Shown here in pieces: positions 9,022-19,494 of a stretch of 36,339 nucleotides of DNA. Within the stretch, counting starts at the first letter, position 1; every line of letters begins with the position of its first letter. This stretch comes from Candidatus Woesearchaeota archaeon (lineage in GTDB: Archaea > Nanobdellota > Nanobdellia > SCGC-AAA011-G17 > GW2011-AR18), in assembly GCA_016179945.1 (NCBI GenBank), contig JACPCE010000005.1:1-36339 (forward strand), read 5' to 3'. The position numbers and the translations under genes are program-made. Below the pieces are notes generated by a model that worked only from the letters and a program-made list of their open reading frames with translations, ran no database searches and had not been told where the DNA came from.

Positions 9022-10380
9022 TTATATACCAAAACCTTTAGGCAATTTTCCTTTAAACTTTTTCATAAGTTTATTCATGTCTTCTTCTGCACCCATTCCC
9101 TTCATCATTTTCATTACTTTCTTGCTTTGTCTATACTGCTTTAATAATCCTCTGACTTCTTCAATAGAAACACCAGCACCGTTAGCAATACGTTGTGCTC
9201 TTGAAGGATCAATTATTTCAGGATCCTCTAATTCCTTTTTAGTGCATGATTGAAGCACATATTTCCATTTTTTTAATTTATCTTCCTGAACATCAAGCAT
9301 ATCTTTTGGAACGGCACTTCCCAAACCAGGAATTAATTCCACTAGTTTTGATAAAGAACCCATAGAAGACATTTTTTCCATTTGATCATATAAATCTAAG
9401 AAATTAAATTCACCCTTTAATAATTTCTTGCTCATATCTTTTGCTTCTTCTTCTGTTATTGCTTCCTTTGTTTTCTCTAATAAAGCTTCTAAATCTCCCA
9501 TACCTAATATTCTGGAAACAAAACCTTTAGGATTAAAAGTCTCTAAATCATCAACCTTCTCACCAATACCAATAAATTTTATAGGTGCTCCTGATACAGC
9601 ACAGGCACTCAAAGCACCACCCCCCTTGGCAGTGCCATCTAATTTAGTAACAACAACACCAGTAATATTACAAGCATCATGAAAAGCTTTAGCTTGGGAT
9701 TGAGCAGCCTGTCCTATGTCAGCAGAAATTACTAATAATTTTTCATCAGGCTTAATTGTTTTGTTCAAGTCTTCAATTTCTTTGATTAGGTCTTTAGATA
9801 AGGCATCTCTTCCAGAAGTGTCAATAATTATTAAATCAAATTGACTTAATTCTTTTTCAAAATTCTTGTAAATCTTTAAAGGATTTTTCTCTTTCTTATC
9901 TATAAAAACAGCAATATTAATTGATTTACATATCTGTTCTAATTGGTCCATTGCAGCAGGTCTGTAAACGTCCAAGCCTAAAGCACAAACTTTGTAACCT
10001 CTTTTTGTATAATATTTAGCCAGTTTTCCAATAGTAGTGCTCTTACCAACACCATATAAACCCGTCATCATAATCTTAAATGGTTTTTTTGTAAGTTCAA
10101 TTTTAGCTCCTTCTCCACCCATGAATTTAACTAATTCTTCATAAACTATTTTTATCAAATATTCTTTTTGTGTTACACCAGAAGGGGGTTTTTCTTTTAG
10201 AGATCTTTCTTTAATGTTTTTACTTAAATCAAAAACCAGCTTTACATTAACATCAGAACTAAGCAAAGCTCTTTGTATATCTTTTACTAGTTCATCTATT
10301 AATTTTTCATCAACAAACATAGCTTTTGCTATTTTAGAAAGGGTATTCTTCAATGAATCGCTTAGTTTGTCTAATACCAT
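9022..10380 (-). CDS. srp54: Signal recognition particle GTPase SRP54
   Basis: 452 residues, the normal archaeal length. It binds signal sequences on the ribosome and docks with FtsY (also in this window) for targeting to the membrane. Helical N domain at about 1-90. The G domain has G1 GLYGVGKST (107-115), G2 DVYRPAAMDQL (137-147), G3 DTSGRD (187-192), G4 TKLD (245-248) and KGGGALS (252-258). The C-terminal M domain is methionine-rich (MEKMSSMGSLSKL, KVMKMMKGMG) and contains the RAQRIANGAGVS RNA-binding helix region. It ends KKFKGKLPKGFGI. Its upstream region carries one copy of the 25-bp repeat that flanks the next module. Confidence 0.97.
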   Translation of the reverse strand: MVLDKLSDSLKNTLSKIAKAMFVDEKLIDELVKDIQRALLSSDVNVKLVFDLSKNIKERSLKEKPPSGVTQKEYLIKIVYEELVKFMGGEGAKIELTKKPFKIMMTGLYGVGKSTTIGKLAKYYTKRGYKVCALGLDVYRPAAMDQLEQICKSINIAVFIDKKEKNPLKIYKNFEKELSQFDLIIIDTSGRDALSKDLIKEIEDLNKTIKPDEKLLVISADIGQAAQSQAKAFHDACNITGVVVTKLDGTAKGGGALSACAVSGAPIKFIGIGEKVDDLETFNPKGFVSRILGMGDLEALLEKTKEAITEEEAKDMSKKLLKGEFNFLDLYDQMEKMSSMGSLSKLVELIPGLGSAVPKDMLDVQEDKLKKWKYVLQSCTKKELEDPEIIDPSRAQRIANGAGVSIEEVRGLLKQYRQSKKVMKMMKGMGAEEDMNKLMKKFKGKLPKGFGI

Positions 10381-10509: not shown

Positions 10510-11034
10510 ATGTTCAAAGAATTAAAAACATTAAAACCATTTTTCGAAGAACCCAATAAAGAGTTCAATGTCAGAGAAGTTTCTAGATTATTAAAAATTG
10601 CACCAGCAACAGCCAGTAAGGAGTTAAAATCTTTATCAAAAATAGGAATACTAAAAGACAGAAAAGAAAGAATGCTAAACCTATATAAATCTAATTTAGA
10701 AAATAGTTTATATAAAGATTTAAAAATATTTTATAGTATTCGCAAAATAAAAGAAAGTGGATTAGTTGATTCTTTAAATAATTTTTATCTAAGACCAACA
10801 ATAATTTTATTTGGTTCATCAGCTTACGGCACAGATACAGAAACTAGCGATCTTGATATTGTAATACTTTCAGAAAAAACAAAAGATTTTTCAGAGACTA
10901 ATAAATTTGAAAAAAAGCTTAATAAAAAAATACAATTTTTCATTCTCAAAGATATTAAAGATCTTAGAAATGATCATTTAATAAATAATGTAATAAATGG
11001 AATAATTATTCAAGGTAAAGTAAAATGGATCTAG
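10510..11034 (+). CDS. HTH-nucleotidyltransferase (MNT), antitoxin-type
   Basis: 174 residues. Residues 15-60 form a winged-helix/ArsR-like domain (FNVREVSRLLKIAPATASKE). Residues about 95-174 are a minimal nucleotidyltransferase: FGSSAYGTDTETSDLDIVIL with Gly102-Ser103 and the metal-binding Asp114 and Asp116 (GS-x10-DxD). In known MNT/HEPN modules the MNT protein adenylylates the HEPN toxin and neutralises it. The HTH domain here could also let it repress its own promoter. The gene overlaps the HEPN gene by 10 bases. A TATA-like AAATATTTAAAC lies about 30 bases upstream of the ATG. Confidence 0.85.
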   Translation: MFKELKTLKPFFEEPNKEFNVREVSRLLKIAPATASKELKSLSKIGILKDRKERMLNLYKSNLENSLYKDLKIFYSIRKIKESGLVDSLNNFYLRPTIILFGSSAYGTDTETSDLDIVILSEKTKDFSETNKFEKKLNKKIQFFILKDIKDLRNDHLINNVINGIIIQGKVKWI

Positions 11035-11438
11035 ATGATTGTTTTAAGAAGGGGTTTATTAAAAAAACCAATATAGACAAAGAATTAATAAAATCTCTTG
11101 TAGAAATGTCTCAAATAAAAGAAGATGCTGTAAAAACTGCAAAAATTAATGATGTAAATATACCTGCATATGTTTCTCTTGCATACGATTCTTTGAGAGA
11201 AAGGTTAGAAGCCCTTTGTATATTAAATGGTTATAAGGTTTTATCACATATTTGTATAGGTGAATTATTAAAAAATATACTTAATAATTTTGATTATGAA
11301 GAATTTGACAGGTTAAGATGGATTAGAAATAGCATTAATTATTATGGAAAAAAAGTTGAATTTGAACAAGGAAAAGAGATTATAGAAAAAATTTTTATTA
11401 TAAATAATAATATATTAGAAAATTATTTAAAGTTATGA
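11025..11438 (+). CDS. HEPN-domain protein, toxin-type partner
   Basis: 137 residues, all helical, typical of HEPN proteins paired with MNT genes (HepT/COG1895-like). The helix KEDAVKTAKINDVNIPAYVS and the next one containing YDSLRERLEALC form the usual four-helix layout. The RNase motif in active family members is R-x4-6-H. Here the corresponding segment is IRNSINYYG (Arg101, Asn102, then Tyr106-Tyr107), so the histidine is replaced by tyrosine. This HEPN may be inactive as an RNase or may use a variant site. The stop is followed 13 bases later by copy 2 of the 25-bp repeat. Confidence 0.82.
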   Translation: MDLDDCFKKGFIKKTNIDKELIKSLVEMSQIKEDAVKTAKINDVNIPAYVSLAYDSLRERLEALCILNGYKVLSHICIGELLKNILNNFDYEEFDRLRWIRNSINYYGKKVEFEQGKEIIEKIFIINNNILENYLKL

Positions 11439-12718: not shown

Positions 12719-13783
12719 TTAAGAATCAATAAACACATAAGATGTAGGATCTATAACTTTATTATCTTTTCTCACACCAATATGAACGTGTGGCTCATAA
12801 CCTCTTGCATTTCCTGTATCCCCTGATTTTCCAAGAATAGTGCTTAAATATATTTCCTGTCCAGGTTTTAAATTTTTATTAATCCGACTTAAATGGCAGT
12901 ATTTAACTCTTAAACCACTATCAGTTATATACTCAGCAATTATTCCATTTCTCCATAATTTCCTGTCTTTTCCCAAATAGATTAATCTTCCTTTTTGGAT
13001 AGGATATAAATTAGTACCTTTTGGGCAGTCTAAATCTATTCCAGTATGTCTTGTAGCTGAATATCTTCCCCCACCTAAAGATCTTAATCTCCTAGCACCG
13101 TATTTATCTTCAGGATCTAAATTTCTTCTCAAATAAGAAATATCAACCCTTAATGGATTTTGTTTAGCAATACCAATTTTAGGTTTTTCTTTAGGAACTT
13201 CAAATTTCTTTTTTTTAGGTTTTCGTATTAATTCAGTTTTAACAAGTGAGCTTGGAACAATAATTTTTTGCTCATCATAAACAATATCACTTCTAGGATT
13301 AATGTTGAAGTTTAAGCACAATATTATGGCTTTCTTTTCATAAAAATCATAAGAATCATTCATGAAATCATGTATCAATTCCCATAAACTGTTTATTCCT
13401 TCATCACCCCATTTTTCTATTTCATATACAACAAACTGTTTTTTATACAATACATTTCCAAGAACTTTTTTAAGAGACATTCTTAATAATCTTTCAGGAA
13501 CAAAAGAAATATTACTTAAAGGAACATTATCATTGAAATCTTGAATTTTTGGACCATTGTCTTGCGTTCCAGTATACAACTCAGCCAAAGAATAATAACT
13601 GTCCCCCTTTCTGACAGGAATTCTCAATGCAAGCTCTTTTTTATGTTTAACATATTCAAGTGTTTCAGATAAATAACCTTTCTTTGCAAAAGCTTCTAAA
13701 TGAGAAAGTGCTGATAAACCTATAAGGCCTAAAAAACCTTTCAATAAAGTTCTTCTTTCAGGTATAAAATAATTATTATCCAT
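12719..13783 (-). CDS. Exported M23 metallopeptidase with Tat-like signal (paralog 1)
   Basis: 354 residues. The N-terminus has a twin arginine (RRTLLKG, Arg10-Arg11) before a hydrophobic stretch, as in Tat signal peptides; no lipobox cysteine is present. Residues about 55-110 have a LysM-like pattern (VRKGDSYYSLAELYTG ... FVPERLL). The C-terminal M23 domain is intact by motif: RHTGID (His246, Asp250), CHLS (His297) and HVHIG (His332, His334). It also has the usual GRLIYLGKD and GKSGDTGNARG segments. It should be a zinc endopeptidase acting outside the membrane. M23 enzymes classically cut peptidoglycan cross-bridges, which archaea lack, so the target is open. It is paired with the next gene, which shares the full domain order. 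Confidence 0.88.
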   Translation of the reverse strand: MDNNYFIPERRTLLKGFLGLIGLSALSHLEAFAKKGYLSETLEYVKHKKELALRIPVRKGDSYYSLAELYTGTQDNGPKIQDFNDNVPLSNISFVPERLLRMSLKKVLGNVLYKKQFVVYEIEKWGDEGINSLWELIHDFMNDSYDFYEKKAIILCLNFNINPRSDIVYDEQKIIVPSSLVKTELIRKPKKKKFEVPKEKPKIGIAKQNPLRVDISYLRRNLDPEDKYGARRLRSLGGGRYSATRHTGIDLDCPKGTNLYPIQKGRLIYLGKDRKLWRNGIIAEYITDSGLRVKYCHLSRINKNLKPGQEIYLSTILGKSGDTGNARGYEPHVHIGVRKDNKVIDPTSYVFIDS

Positions 13784-13817: not shown

Positions 13818-14879
13818 TCATCTTTTAAAAAATTGTCTGTCTAAATCTAAAACATAATCTCTAGTATCAACTAAAATATAAGGTGAAGGATTGACATTTT
13901 TTCCGTTAAAAGTTATTTGTACATGCACATGGGGATCATCTTTTTCAACATTGCCTGTAGTTCCAACTTTTCCTAAAATTGTATTTTTATTTATTTCGCT
14001 TCCCAGAGACAATTTATTATTTACCCAAGAAAGATGCAAGTATGTAACTATCAGGCCGTCTTTTGTTTTATAAGTTACCCTTATACCATTTCCAGGCTTA
14101 TCATTATCTTTGCCACCATATATAAATTTTCCATCTTGAATAGGATAAAGTGCAAAACCAACAGGCATAGGTATATCAATCCCTAAATGCCTGCTTATGA
14201 TAAAAAACTTACCTTCTTCATCATCACCCCTTAATCTCCTAGCACCATACACATATCTTCTCTTTAAATTTTTTATAATTGAATCAGCAGATTTTATTTT
14301 CAAAGGGTTTTGAAAATTATCACTCAATTTAGGTACAATGTCAAATTCATAAGGACTTGGTTTTTCTTCAATATTAAAATCTACAAAAAACCTTGGTACA
14401 ATAACTAGATCGCCCTCTTTTAATTCTTTATTTTTAGGATCTATATCATTAATTACCAACAAAACAGCAAGTTTATCATCAAGACCATAAGAATCATTCA
14501 TGAAATCTTTTGCAATATCATCCAAATCATTAATACCATTTTCGCCTTGAGCCCCAAGTTTATATATTGTATATTTGTCTTCTTCTATTGTATTATTCAG
14601 CACTTTTCTTAAAAGTCTTTTAGGTAAAAATAAAAATTTTTTATTCAAATTTTTTTCATTAAATGCTTTTATTTCATTAGCATTATTTTTATTTTCAGTA
14701 TAAAGCTCAGATATGTAAGTGTAGTTTTCTCTTTCCCATCTTCTTACCTTTACTTTTATAGCTGGTTCTTCATTAAAAATCTCAAATTTTGGTTTTGTTA
14801 AAGCAGAAGCCAGTCTTGAAAAACCAAGTAAAACAGCACTAACTCCAACCAAATTTATAAAATCTCTTCTCCTAAACAT
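13818..14879 (-). CDS. Exported M23 metallopeptidase with Tat signal (paralog 2)
   Basis: The start chosen is the ATG at 14879: AGAGGT lies a few bases before it, and it gives MFRRRDFINLVG, a near-perfect twin-arginine signal. An upstream TTG in frame (14897) would place this Shine-Dalgarno inside the gene. 353 residues. The layout matches the neighbour: Tat signal, LysM-like ENYTYISELYTENKNN ... FLPKRLL, a DFMNDSYGLDDK helix also found in the paralog as DFMNDSYDFYEK, then M23. Zinc motifs are RHLGID (His231, Asp235), LHLS (His282) and HVHV (His317, His319). The two genes are 34 bases apart and clearly a tandem duplication that has since diverged. Confidence 0.88.
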   Translation of the reverse strand: MFRRRDFINLVGVSAVLLGFSRLASALTKPKFEIFNEEPAIKVKVRRWERENYTYISELYTENKNNANEIKAFNEKNLNKKFLFLPKRLLRKVLNNTIEEDKYTIYKLGAQGENGINDLDDIAKDFMNDSYGLDDKLAVLLVINDIDPKNKELKEGDLVIVPRFFVDFNIEEKPSPYEFDIVPKLSDNFQNPLKIKSADSIIKNLKRRYVYGARRLRGDDEEGKFFIISRHLGIDIPMPVGFALYPIQDGKFIYGGKDNDKPGNGIRVTYKTKDGLIVTYLHLSWVNNKLSLGSEINKNTILGKVGTTGNVEKDDPHVHVQITFNGKNVNPSPYILVDTRDYVLDLDRQFFKR

Positions 14880-14913
14880 TTTACCTCTTTTATACAATTA
14901 AAAATATTATAAG

Positions 14914-16682: not shown

Positions 16683-18482
16683 TTAAAGTCCTAAATTTTT
16701 AATTATTTCTTCTTTGTCAAACTCTTTTAAGTCATCCAAATTCTGGCCAGTACCTATATATATTATCGGTTTCTTTGTTACAAAAGCAGTAGATACCATT
16801 GCCCCGCCTTTTTCATCGACATCTGCTTTGGATAAAATTATACCATCAATATCAATAGCAGAATTAAATTCTTTTGCTTGTTCAATACAATCATTTCCAG
16901 TTATACTCTCACCAACAAATATTTTCATATCTGGCTTAGCTACACGTATAATTTTTTGCATTTCCCTAACAAGATCTTTATTAGAATGTAGTCTTCCAGC
17001 AGTATCAATTAAAACAACATCAATTCCATGAGCTTCAGCATATTTTATAGTATCAAATGTGACAGCAGCAGGATCACTACCATAATCATGAGCTATAACC
17101 TTTAAATTTAGTTTACTTCCCCATTCTTTTAATTGTTGTATTGCAGCAGCCCTAAAAGTATCAGCAGCAGCCAAAACTACAGATTTTTTATTTTTCTGCA
17201 ATAAATGAGCAATTTTTGCAATGCTTGTTGTCTTGCCACTGCCGTTGATTCCAACAAAACAAATTATATATGGTTTTTTAGTTTTTACTTTCTCAAGTAG
17301 ATTAATTTTCTCAACGTTAAATAAATCTTCAATGCTTGATTTCAAAGAATTCTTTATCTCATCTTCAACATTTCCTCTTTTAATTGGTTTTTCAATAATA
17401 TTATTTTTCATATCTTCCTTTATTTTCTCCACAACTTCAAAAGCAACATTATTTTCTAGCAAAGCCAGCTCTAATTCATAAAATAATTCTCCAAATTTCT
17501 CTTCAGAAATTTTAGTTGTAGTTATTTTTTCTTTTATTAACCCGAAAATCCCTTTCTTCTCTTCTATAAACTCTTCTTTAGGTGCTTCTTCTATAATTTC
17601 TTTCTTCTCTTCTATTGGTTTGATTTCCTCTTCTTTTCTTACAAATTTCTCCTTTAGTTTAGAAAAAAACCCTTTTTTCTCTTCTTTTAACTCAACTTTA
17701 TTACTTATAAAATAATTCCAGCCTGGCTGCCATGCCTTTTTTAATCTCCAGTCTTCTTCAATTGCTTCTTCCCAAGATTTATTATTTAATAATACTTCAA
17801 TAGCTAGTTGTGGTGCTTTATGAGCTATAATAGCTGCATGTTTTCCATAGTAGTTCTCAAATAAATAATTCAAAAATTCTGCAATTCTTTTTTCTACATC
17901 TTTTAAGCTTTCACCATAAGGAAAATTTCTATTAATATGATCAACATAAAATATATTTTCTTCACCAGATTGGTTTAGATCACCATAGTCGCATTCTCTA
18001 AGCCTTTTATCTTGAATAATTTTAAAATTTTTAAATGTTAAATTTGCTGAATCAACAGCTCTTTTTAAATCAGAACTAAAAATAATATCAAAGTCATTTA
18101 AATTGATTTTTTCCCTAAGTTCTATTGCCTGTTTCTTTCCTAATTCTGATAATTCTCCTTGTGCCTGTCCTGTTGAAATTTCTTTTTCATTATCTGTTGT
18201 AGTTCCATGAACAAAATAAGTAATCTTTAATCCATTTATTTTTTCAGGCTCTTCAATAATTTCTTTTTCAGGAGTAAGCTCTTCAGACTTGTGTTCATCT
18301 TCAAGTGATTTACTTTTGATTTTTTCCCTCTTTTTAATCTTCTCAACTTTTTTCTTCTCTTGTTTTGGATTTTCCTCTTTAACTTTCTTAGTTTCTATTT
18401 CTTCTTTAGGTGCTTCTTCCTCTACTTTTCTAGATATTTTAGAAATTGCACTTTTTATTTTATCTTTTAAAAAGCCGAACAT
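16683..18482 (-). CDS. ftsY: SRP receptor FtsY with an inserted histidine-phosphatase domain
   Basis: 599 residues, against roughly 300-400 for ordinary archaeal FtsY. Order: amphipathic MFGFLKDKIKSAISKI (1-16); charged linker to about 84; histidine-phosphatase-like domain, about 85-265; a second charged linker with two more FxxLKEK-like helices (270-280, 311-320); FtsY N domain, about 325-395; G domain to the end. SRP-GTPase motifs are intact: GINGSGKTT (411-419), DTFRAAAIQQL (441-451), DTAGR (493-497) and SKAD (551-554). The phosphatase part has VHGTTTDN (His92; the usual Arg of RHG is Val91), SSDLKRAVDSA (Arg141), LRECDYGD (161-168) and AHKAPQLA (His221). FtsY receives SRP-ribosome complexes at the membrane; what the phosphatase-like domain adds is unknown. 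The frame is continuous. Confidence 0.93.
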   Translation of the reverse strand: MFGFLKDKIKSAISKISRKVEEEAPKEEIETKKVKEENPKQEKKKVEKIKKREKIKSKSLEDEHKSEELTPEKEIIEEPEKINGLKITYFVHGTTTDNEKEISTGQAQGELSELGKKQAIELREKINLNDFDIIFSSDLKRAVDSANLTFKNFKIIQDKRLRECDYGDLNQSGEENIFYVDHINRNFPYGESLKDVEKRIAEFLNYLFENYYGKHAAIIAHKAPQLAIEVLLNNKSWEEAIEEDWRLKKAWQPGWNYFISNKVELKEEKKGFFSKLKEKFVRKEEEIKPIEEKKEIIEEAPKEEFIEEKKGIFGLIKEKITTTKISEEKFGELFYELELALLENNVAFEVVEKIKEDMKNNIIEKPIKRGNVEDEIKNSLKSSIEDLFNVEKINLLEKVKTKKPYIICFVGINGSGKTTSIAKIAHLLQKNKKSVVLAAADTFRAAAIQQLKEWGSKLNLKVIAHDYGSDPAAVTFDTIKYAEAHGIDVVLIDTAGRLHSNKDLVREMQKIIRVAKPDMKIFVGESITGNDCIEQAKEFNSAIDIDGIILSKADVDEKGGAMVSTAFVTKKPIIYIGTGQNLDDLKEFDKEEIIKNLGL

Positions 18483-18516: not shown

Positions 18517-19494
18517 TTATTGTAAATAAGTACTTAATTTCTTAACTAGCATTGTAGCATAAGAACCCTTAGGTAAAAAGAAACTTAATTCAAGTTTTAA
18601 TTTATCCTTATTTAATTCTTCTTTTGCCCATTTATATTTTATATTTTCAACATTAACAAAAGCATCCCTATTAACACCCTGAGTAATAAGTTCAGGAATC
18701 TCTCTTACTATAAAATCCCCTCTTTTTATTCCTTCCTCATTCATTATTTTATCTAAAACATCGTTTTTATCAGTGTCAAAGTTTGCAATAGGTATTTTAA
18801 AATTTTTTATTTTAGAAGTTGTAAATAAAAATTCTCCAATGCTTGATTTAAATTTATTGTGTTTTTTCTCTTTTAAAATTTCATTTAATGTTTTATTCCA
18901 TAAATAAGATTGGTAACTGGAAATATAAAATCTCAAAAGCCTTCTCTGCTGTTTTTTTATCTCACCAACATAATTATTATTTTCAACTTTTAAATTCAAT
19001 AATTCACAAACTTCTTTAAAATTTCTTTTCAACAAAGACTTCCCAACAAAATGTGTATTTTGTTTGTTTCCAAATCTTTGCTCGTCAAAATAATTCTCCA
19101 AATGCAGATTTTTAGGAAGATTGGTTTTATTATTTAACTCTCTAACAACAATTTTAAAATTGTTCCCAATTAAATCACCAAGGTTAATTCTGTTTTTAGA
19201 GTATCCAACAAATTCTAATTTAACTTCATTAATGTTAATTTTTTCTATTTTAGATTTTGGGATTTTATAAATAGAAATATATTGTGTAGTGACTGCATTT
19301 CTGTCTTTATTTCCTGCAAAACCTACAAATTTGGGATTTGTTCTTAAAGATTTAGCTATTGCTTGAATTATTTTAAATGATTCCCAGCCTTTTTTAGTTA
19401 GTTTCCATATAGAATAATCTAATTTTTCTTTTTTTAATTTTAATTCAATTTTCTCTTCAACTATAAAATCCTCTGGAATTTGTTTTGTTTTCAT
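18517..19494 (-). CDS. truD: tRNA pseudouridine synthase TruD
   Basis: 325 residues, slightly short for archaeal TruD/Pus7. It modifies U13 in tRNA. The diagnostic motif FAGNKDRNAVTTQ (59-71) holds the catalytic Asp64. The N-terminal IPEDFIVEEKIEL and later YFDEQRFGNKQNTHFVGK, where the TRUD insertion begins, plus RFYISSYQSYLWNKTLNE are all family features. The TRUD insertion domain looks reduced, which would explain the length. It lies 34 bases from the FtsY start and is probably co-transcribed; the upstream promoter region is shared with the divergent gene at 19547. Confidence 0.93.
   Translation of the reverse strand: MKTKQIPEDFIVEEKIELKLKKEKLDYSIWKLTKKGWESFKIIQAIAKSLRTNPKFVGFAGNKDRNAVTTQYISIYKIPKSKIEKININEVKLEFVGYSKNRINLGDLIGNNFKIVVRELNNKTNLPKNLHLENYFDEQRFGNKQNTHFVGKSLLKRNFKEVCELLNLKVENNNYVGEIKKQQRRLLRFYISSYQSYLWNKTLNEILKEKKHNKFKSSIGEFLFTTSKIKNFKIPIANFDTDKNDVLDKIMNEEGIKRGDFIVREIPELITQGVNRDAFVNVENIKYKWAKEELNKDKLKLELSFFLPKGSYATMLVKKLSTYLQ

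Follow-up and report, generated by a model that had tools for sequence, protein, structure and literature searches.

FtsY is among life's most conserved proteins, and its A domain is usually viewed as a membrane tether. The FtsY described here resembles other members of the family (TIGR00064) in three respects: firstly, it has a complete NG core that scores above the family cut-off; secondly, it has a charged, acidic A domain with predicted membrane-binding helices; thirdly, it is the sole receptor of a genome in which SRP54 is also present. It differs in having a histidine phosphatase (HP) domain inserted in the A region; elsewhere in the phylum the insert can also be an alpha/beta hydrolase or a NUDIX domain. 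In the open-access literature we found no description of an FtsY with an enzyme domain in its A region, and full-text searches of open-access papers also bore out the original prediction's claim that an FtsY-phosphatase fusion had not been described.

The inserted domain is closest to the branch-1 phosphatases PspA, PhoE and CobC (PF00300; 4ij5, 1h2e, 6e4b), with which it shares its fold (TMq 0.76-0.81), the catalytic His/Arg/Glu/His set and Asn98. It is 24-26% identical to PspA and 20-21% identical to CobC and PhoE, from all of which it differs by a valine in place of the RHG arginine and by an added DWR...WQPGW signature. Histidine phosphatases have been found on other housekeeping proteins. 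A catalogue of archaeal fusions, whose text does not mention FtsY, records a Sat-histidine phosphatase fusion in one Sulfolobus (PMC11237513), which is likewise an HP on an unrelated housekeeping protein but is a single case with another partner. Class I aminoacyl-tRNA synthetases with an inserted HP also occur in CPR-type genomes (L145, L163, L164); two of these (L163 and L164) differ from FtsY-HP in carrying another HP subfamily, of the RHG/RHT type, within the folded core and not in a disordered linker. We consider it probable, at about two chances in three, that the protein studied here is a working SRP receptor with an autonomous, predicted phosphatase-type enzyme plugged into the disordered linker of its A domain.

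The window, meaning the whole stretch of DNA analysed, comprises 36,339 nt of Candidatus Woesearchaeota archaeon (GCA_016179945.1, contig JACPCE010000005.1, positions 1 to 36,339 of the forward strand). The original prediction, that a single uninterrupted 599-codon frame joins a phosphatase-like domain to a complete NG domain, was confirmed by Pfam and TIGR00064. The frame (18482..16683, minus strand) has no internal stop and encodes, from N to C terminus, an amphipathic helix, a charged linker, the branch-1 HP domain, a second charged linker and the NG domain (Table 1). Pfam matched His_Phos_1 at residues 92-227 (E=1.6e-23, 83.8 bits against a cut-off of 21.7), SRP54_N (E=6.8e-7) and the SRP54 GTPase domain (E=2.4e-71). 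The protein scored 304.9 bits with the NCBIfam FtsY profile (cut-off 260.7) and 215.4 with the ffh profile, below the ffh cut-off of 473.2. No other FtsY accompanies it: the only other NG-type match in its genome is SRP54. Archaeal SRP RNA was not found in this 74%-complete genome (G000) and scored above the RF01857 cut-off in both sister species.

Table 1. Features of the fusion gene and of its relevant neighbours, in window coordinates
Feature	Residues	Position	Strand	Basis or remark
FtsY-HP fusion gene	1-599	16683..18482	minus	599 aa, 599 codons + stop
N-terminal amphipathic helix MFGFLKDKIKSAISKISRKVEE	1-22	18417..18482	minus	AF2 helix 3-22, pLDDT ~84
Charged disordered linker 1	24-79	18246..18413	minus	pLDDT<50 at 24-79; HP slot
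HP domain (branch 1, VHGTT subfamily)	83-262	17697..18236	minus	PF00300; AF2; Foldseek
His92, putative phosphate-accepting nucleophile, after Val91	92	18207..18209	minus	invariant
Arg141, phosphate-pocket arginine	141	18060..18062	minus	invariant
Glu163, putative proton donor	163	17994..17996	minus	invariant
His221, second catalytic histidine	221	17820..17822	minus	invariant
Asp244-Trp245-Arg246, subfamily signature	244-246	17745..17753	minus	invariant
Charged disordered linker 2	267-311	17550..17684	minus	pLDDT<50 at 267-320
Second amphipathic motif KKGFFSKLKEKF	269-282	17637..17678	minus	same place in HP-less sister FtsYs
SRP54_N helical bundle	311-370	17373..17552	minus	Pfam
SRP GTPase G domain	405-597	16692..17270	minus	Pfam; TIGR00064 above cut-off
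truD		18517..19494	minus	directly upstream of FtsY-HP, 34-bp gap
SRP54/Ffh, partner GTPase		9022..10380	minus	NG-type match

The same fused frame occurs, at 73-74% identity, in the two remaining species of the genus (3/3 species), and the order of truD and FtsY is kept in both. The same domain order is present in many other MAGs: a search for the domain pair recovered it from 13 of 371 phylum genomes and from 15 named GenBank records. An assembly error or chance frame is ruled out by the three species, the 20 distinct fused FtsYs included in our trees and the named records. Elsewhere in the window, two pairs of genes caught our attention: two M23 peptidases encoded in tandem, here in an archaeon, each with a twin-arginine-like signal sequence (12719-13783 and 13818-14897, minus strand), and an overlapping pair resembling an HTH-nucleotidyltransferase (MNT) and a HEPN protein, possibly a toxin-antitoxin system (10510-11034 and 11025-11438, plus strand).

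An AF2 model of the HP domain built with 30 relatives reached a mean pLDDT of 96.7 and a pTM of 0.91, and Foldseek against the PDB (E 1e-12) matched it to the phosphoserine phosphatase PspA (TMq 0.81), PhoE (0.79) and the alpha-ribazole phosphatase CobC. His92, Arg141, His221 and Val91 lie where the original prediction placed them. Across 30 aligned domains and 25 fused copies, His92, Asn98, Arg141, Glu163, His221, Trp237, Asp244, Trp245 and Arg246 are invariant, and the arginine of RHG is replaced subfamily-wide, by valine in general and by alanine in one copy. Because this arginine is missing, we claim descent from the superfamily and its fold, not canonical catalytic membership. The NCBIfam equivalogs of the phosphatase subfamilies score below their cut-offs (CobC 63.4 against 162.9, PspA 52.6 against 350, dPGM_arch 42.8 against 225). 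Its loss throughout the subfamily also means that catalysis could be altered, or given up in favour of binding. The domain might thus be a catalytically dead module that binds phosphate or another ligand or serves as a scaffold or spacer, a reading in keeping with the Val or Ala at this position in every copy examined. We think this improbable: both histidines, the pocket arginine, Glu163 and Asn98 never vary, although a spacer could do without them; long plain linkers exist in other FtsYs, so a folded spacer is not required; and the additional invariant Arg246 of DWR may be a candidate substitute that compensates for the lost arginine. The constancy of the catalytic residues instead argues for a predicted active enzyme.

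In the full-length AF2 model the N-terminal helix, HP and NG are folded and set apart by disordered linkers. The helix, which precedes the charged A region, is predicted from its sequence and modelled structure to bind the membrane, and its motif is common to FtsYs without HP. In HP-less sister FtsYs the A region runs from helix 1 through a charged linker, a KKGFFSKLKxKF motif and another linker to KKGFFG-I-KEKITT, and it is the first of these linkers that HP occupies. In every tabulated fused FtsY but L063, in which HP follows the second amphipathic motif, the domain comes after the first motif and before the second, or before the N domain in proteins that lack the second motif. We also considered whether every long FtsY A domain bears a domain and rejected this, as most HP-less ones are plain low-complexity charged linkers. 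Two FtsY linkers (L212 and L214) have in common a patch of ~65 aa that is not of low complexity (LSIEL..LKESLDEHPEEDIDSVMN.LGFP).

A scan of one genome collection yielded 453 confirmed loci of a coherent HP subfamily (VHGTT...DWR...WQPGW), the best 80 of which belong to DPANN archaea, CPR bacteria and gut Clostridia, Bacilli and Mycoplasmatota. In DPANN archaea, CPR bacteria and gut Firmicutes the subfamily occurs as a horizontally spread, predicted stand-alone enzyme. A viral origin for the domain was dismissed, viral contigs holding no HP relative. When the phylum was sampled evenly (371 genomes), 37 had the domain: 13 in FtsY, one C-terminally in GyrA and 23 as a stand-alone protein. The FtsY fusions span seven families (f1, f27, f30, f33, f48, f49, f54), so that a genus-specific oddity is rejected. 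Each HP-bearing genome of this sample has one copy, fused or free; whether the two forms exclude each other was considered and set aside, the numbers being too small for significance. We also surveyed 914 genomes from four other groups and found the subfamily in 40 of 380 CPR genomes, in two more archaeal phyla (17 of 156 and 4 of 87 genomes) and in a Clostridia class sample (4 of 291). None of these 914 genomes (0/65 HP-bearing) has the FtsY fusion, and the open frames are all of stand-alone size except one fusion to RsmG. Partners other than FtsY are GlyRS (L098), ValRS (L145), RsmG (L096) and GyrA (L032). The neighbourhoods of 62 stand-alone HP loci showed no conservation that hinted at a substrate; NUDIX-like genes lay within three genes of HP at six of the 62, which we judged near expectation.

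To follow the history of the fusion, we compared a quick tree of 135 FtsY NG domains (SH-aLRT support only) with trees of the HP domain that took in the 20 distinct fused FtsYs. HP presence is scattered over the NG tree and requires at least 16 changes. Two pairs of FtsYs with nearly identical NG domains (L112/L243, 95.3%; L046/L173, 93.9%) differ by the whole HP domain, through gain or loss; at the DNA level, L112 and L243 have flanks that are 91-96% identical and ~650 bp present or absent between two GAACCT hexamers. In the careful HP tree the FtsY copies formed a single clade in 0 of 200 bootstrap trees, and 5-8 label changes were needed. The HPs of L112 and L122 nest within a stand-alone clade (support 100/98) and find their closest relatives among stand-alone proteins, at 81-83% identity, whereas identity with the other FtsY copies is 63%. 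The opposite case also occurs, in that the stand-alone L060 groups as sister to an FtsY copy (97/91). One ancestral fusion inherited vertically is therefore disfavoured by the trees, though an AU test against a single origin of all FtsY-HPs was borderline (p=0.055, quick tree) and a one-clade topology was not rejected once L112 and L122 were left out (p=0.505). Because the HP trees split the FtsY copies and these two nest among stand-alone genes, at least two independent entries of HP into FtsY are well supported by the sequence comparisons. A separate observation concerns one sister species (G001), whose HP (L003) groups with L064 of a distant family and not with its own genus (94/98), on long branches; this suggests, with uncertainty, a domain replacement.

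The fused HP domain is under purifying selection. For pairs with unsaturated dS, omega was 0.089, 0.087, 0.207 and 0.236 for HP as compared to 0.091, 0.059, 0.138 and 0.103 for NG, values that are approximate because dS is high (0.8-2.2), and the linkers of FtsY-HP pairs evolve much faster than either domain. Together with the 453 loci and the invariant catalytic residues, this low omega upholds the original view of a coherent subfamily rather than decay. It also bears on whether a stand-alone gene was simply fused by chance in a reduced-genome lineage and neutrally carried since. The scattered distribution and recent presence and absence of HP would fit such an accident, which the sequence evidence for selection already disfavours; with fused HP omega near 0.1-0.2, the same linker entered more than once and none of the genus's three species lacking the fusion, we regard it as very improbable.

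Could the domain act on FtsY itself? The original prediction had proposed that the domain may dephosphorylate a metabolite or protein where membrane translocation takes place, or couple targeting to nutrient state, and HP might sense or dephosphorylate a metabolite or phosphoprotein and so adjust how FtsY binds the membrane or its GTPase cycle with SRP. No other partner comes near FtsY in frequency (13 of 37 HP-bearing phylum genomes), which could mean FtsY-specific selection beyond mere tolerance; no FtsY fusion occurs in the other groups that we sampled, HP almost always takes the same slot between membrane helix and NG, and its sequence is constrained. By contrast, the subfamily also sits on a gyrase subunit, two tRNA synthetases and an rRNA methylase and mostly stands alone, it comes and goes among near-identical FtsYs, and both linkers are predicted to be disordered, with no conserved contact. 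This diversity of partners, scattered presence and disordered tethering argue against a role within the SRP cycle, and we consider the regulatory reading unlikely; neither control of SRP targeting nor its coupling to nutrient state gained support from the analysis. The preference for FtsY (13/37 as compared to 0/65) may instead reflect unusually long FtsY linkers in this phylum, or selection for a location at the membrane.

If the protein is, as we favour, an SRP receptor carrying an autonomous enzyme, HP would be a real phosphatase that works through a phospho-His intermediate at His92 with Arg141, Glu163 and His221, and Arg246 of DWR would take over from the missing RHG arginine. Its substrate would be a small phosphorylated metabolite, shared with the stand-alone enzyme. 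By analogy with FtsY biology, HP is probably placed near the membrane and translocon; the fusion would tether it at the inner membrane face, beside docked ribosomes, and leave it outside the SRP GTPase cycle. The A-linker would then be a tolerant port that also accepts other enzymes. An alpha/beta Ser_hydrolase domain lies in FtsY linkers alone (L207, 78-1964) or with HP (L114/L049 and L122), and in a single case a linker holds both NUDIX and HP (L112:2186-4849), its 95%-identical counterpart L243 having neither. Haloferax can dispense with the A domain of its FtsY (PMC2905702), which agrees with a tolerant port.

A further step is possible, and we take it only tentatively: that the A-linker is an evolutionary docking port which has time and again taken in, with the reading frame kept, small enzymes that move horizontally, HP foremost, with alpha/beta hydrolase and NUDIX. 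The advantage would lie in their display at the membrane near translating ribosomes, where a phosphate-metabolite reaction would be linked to co-translational targeting. In these symbiont-type archaea, whose genomes are mostly <2 Mb, the A domain of FtsY has acquired a whole enzyme domain more than once independently. FtsY-HP offers a means of testing if docking at the A-linker is general, if histidine phosphatases without the RHG arginine have activity, and by what route a single small enzyme gene moves among bacteria, archaea and essential proteins as unrelated as the SRP receptor, gyrase, tRNA synthetases and an rRNA methylase.

Several relatives showed further arrangements. The GyrA fusion (L032:1185-4478, G005, same family) has its C-terminal HP behind an acidic linker, and one stand-alone HP (L165:1186-2139, G110) bears a long, strongly basic C-terminal tail that looks nucleic-acid-binding. 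Among the tRNA synthetases, the ValRS of a CPR genome (L163:1407-4802, G386) has an ASCH domain and a canonical RHT-type HP inserted after the GHRIPVWY site. A partial IleRS (L164:1259-3586, G390) has an RHG-type HP at the equivalent place, and the same genome also encodes the ValRS with a VHGTT-type HP (L145).
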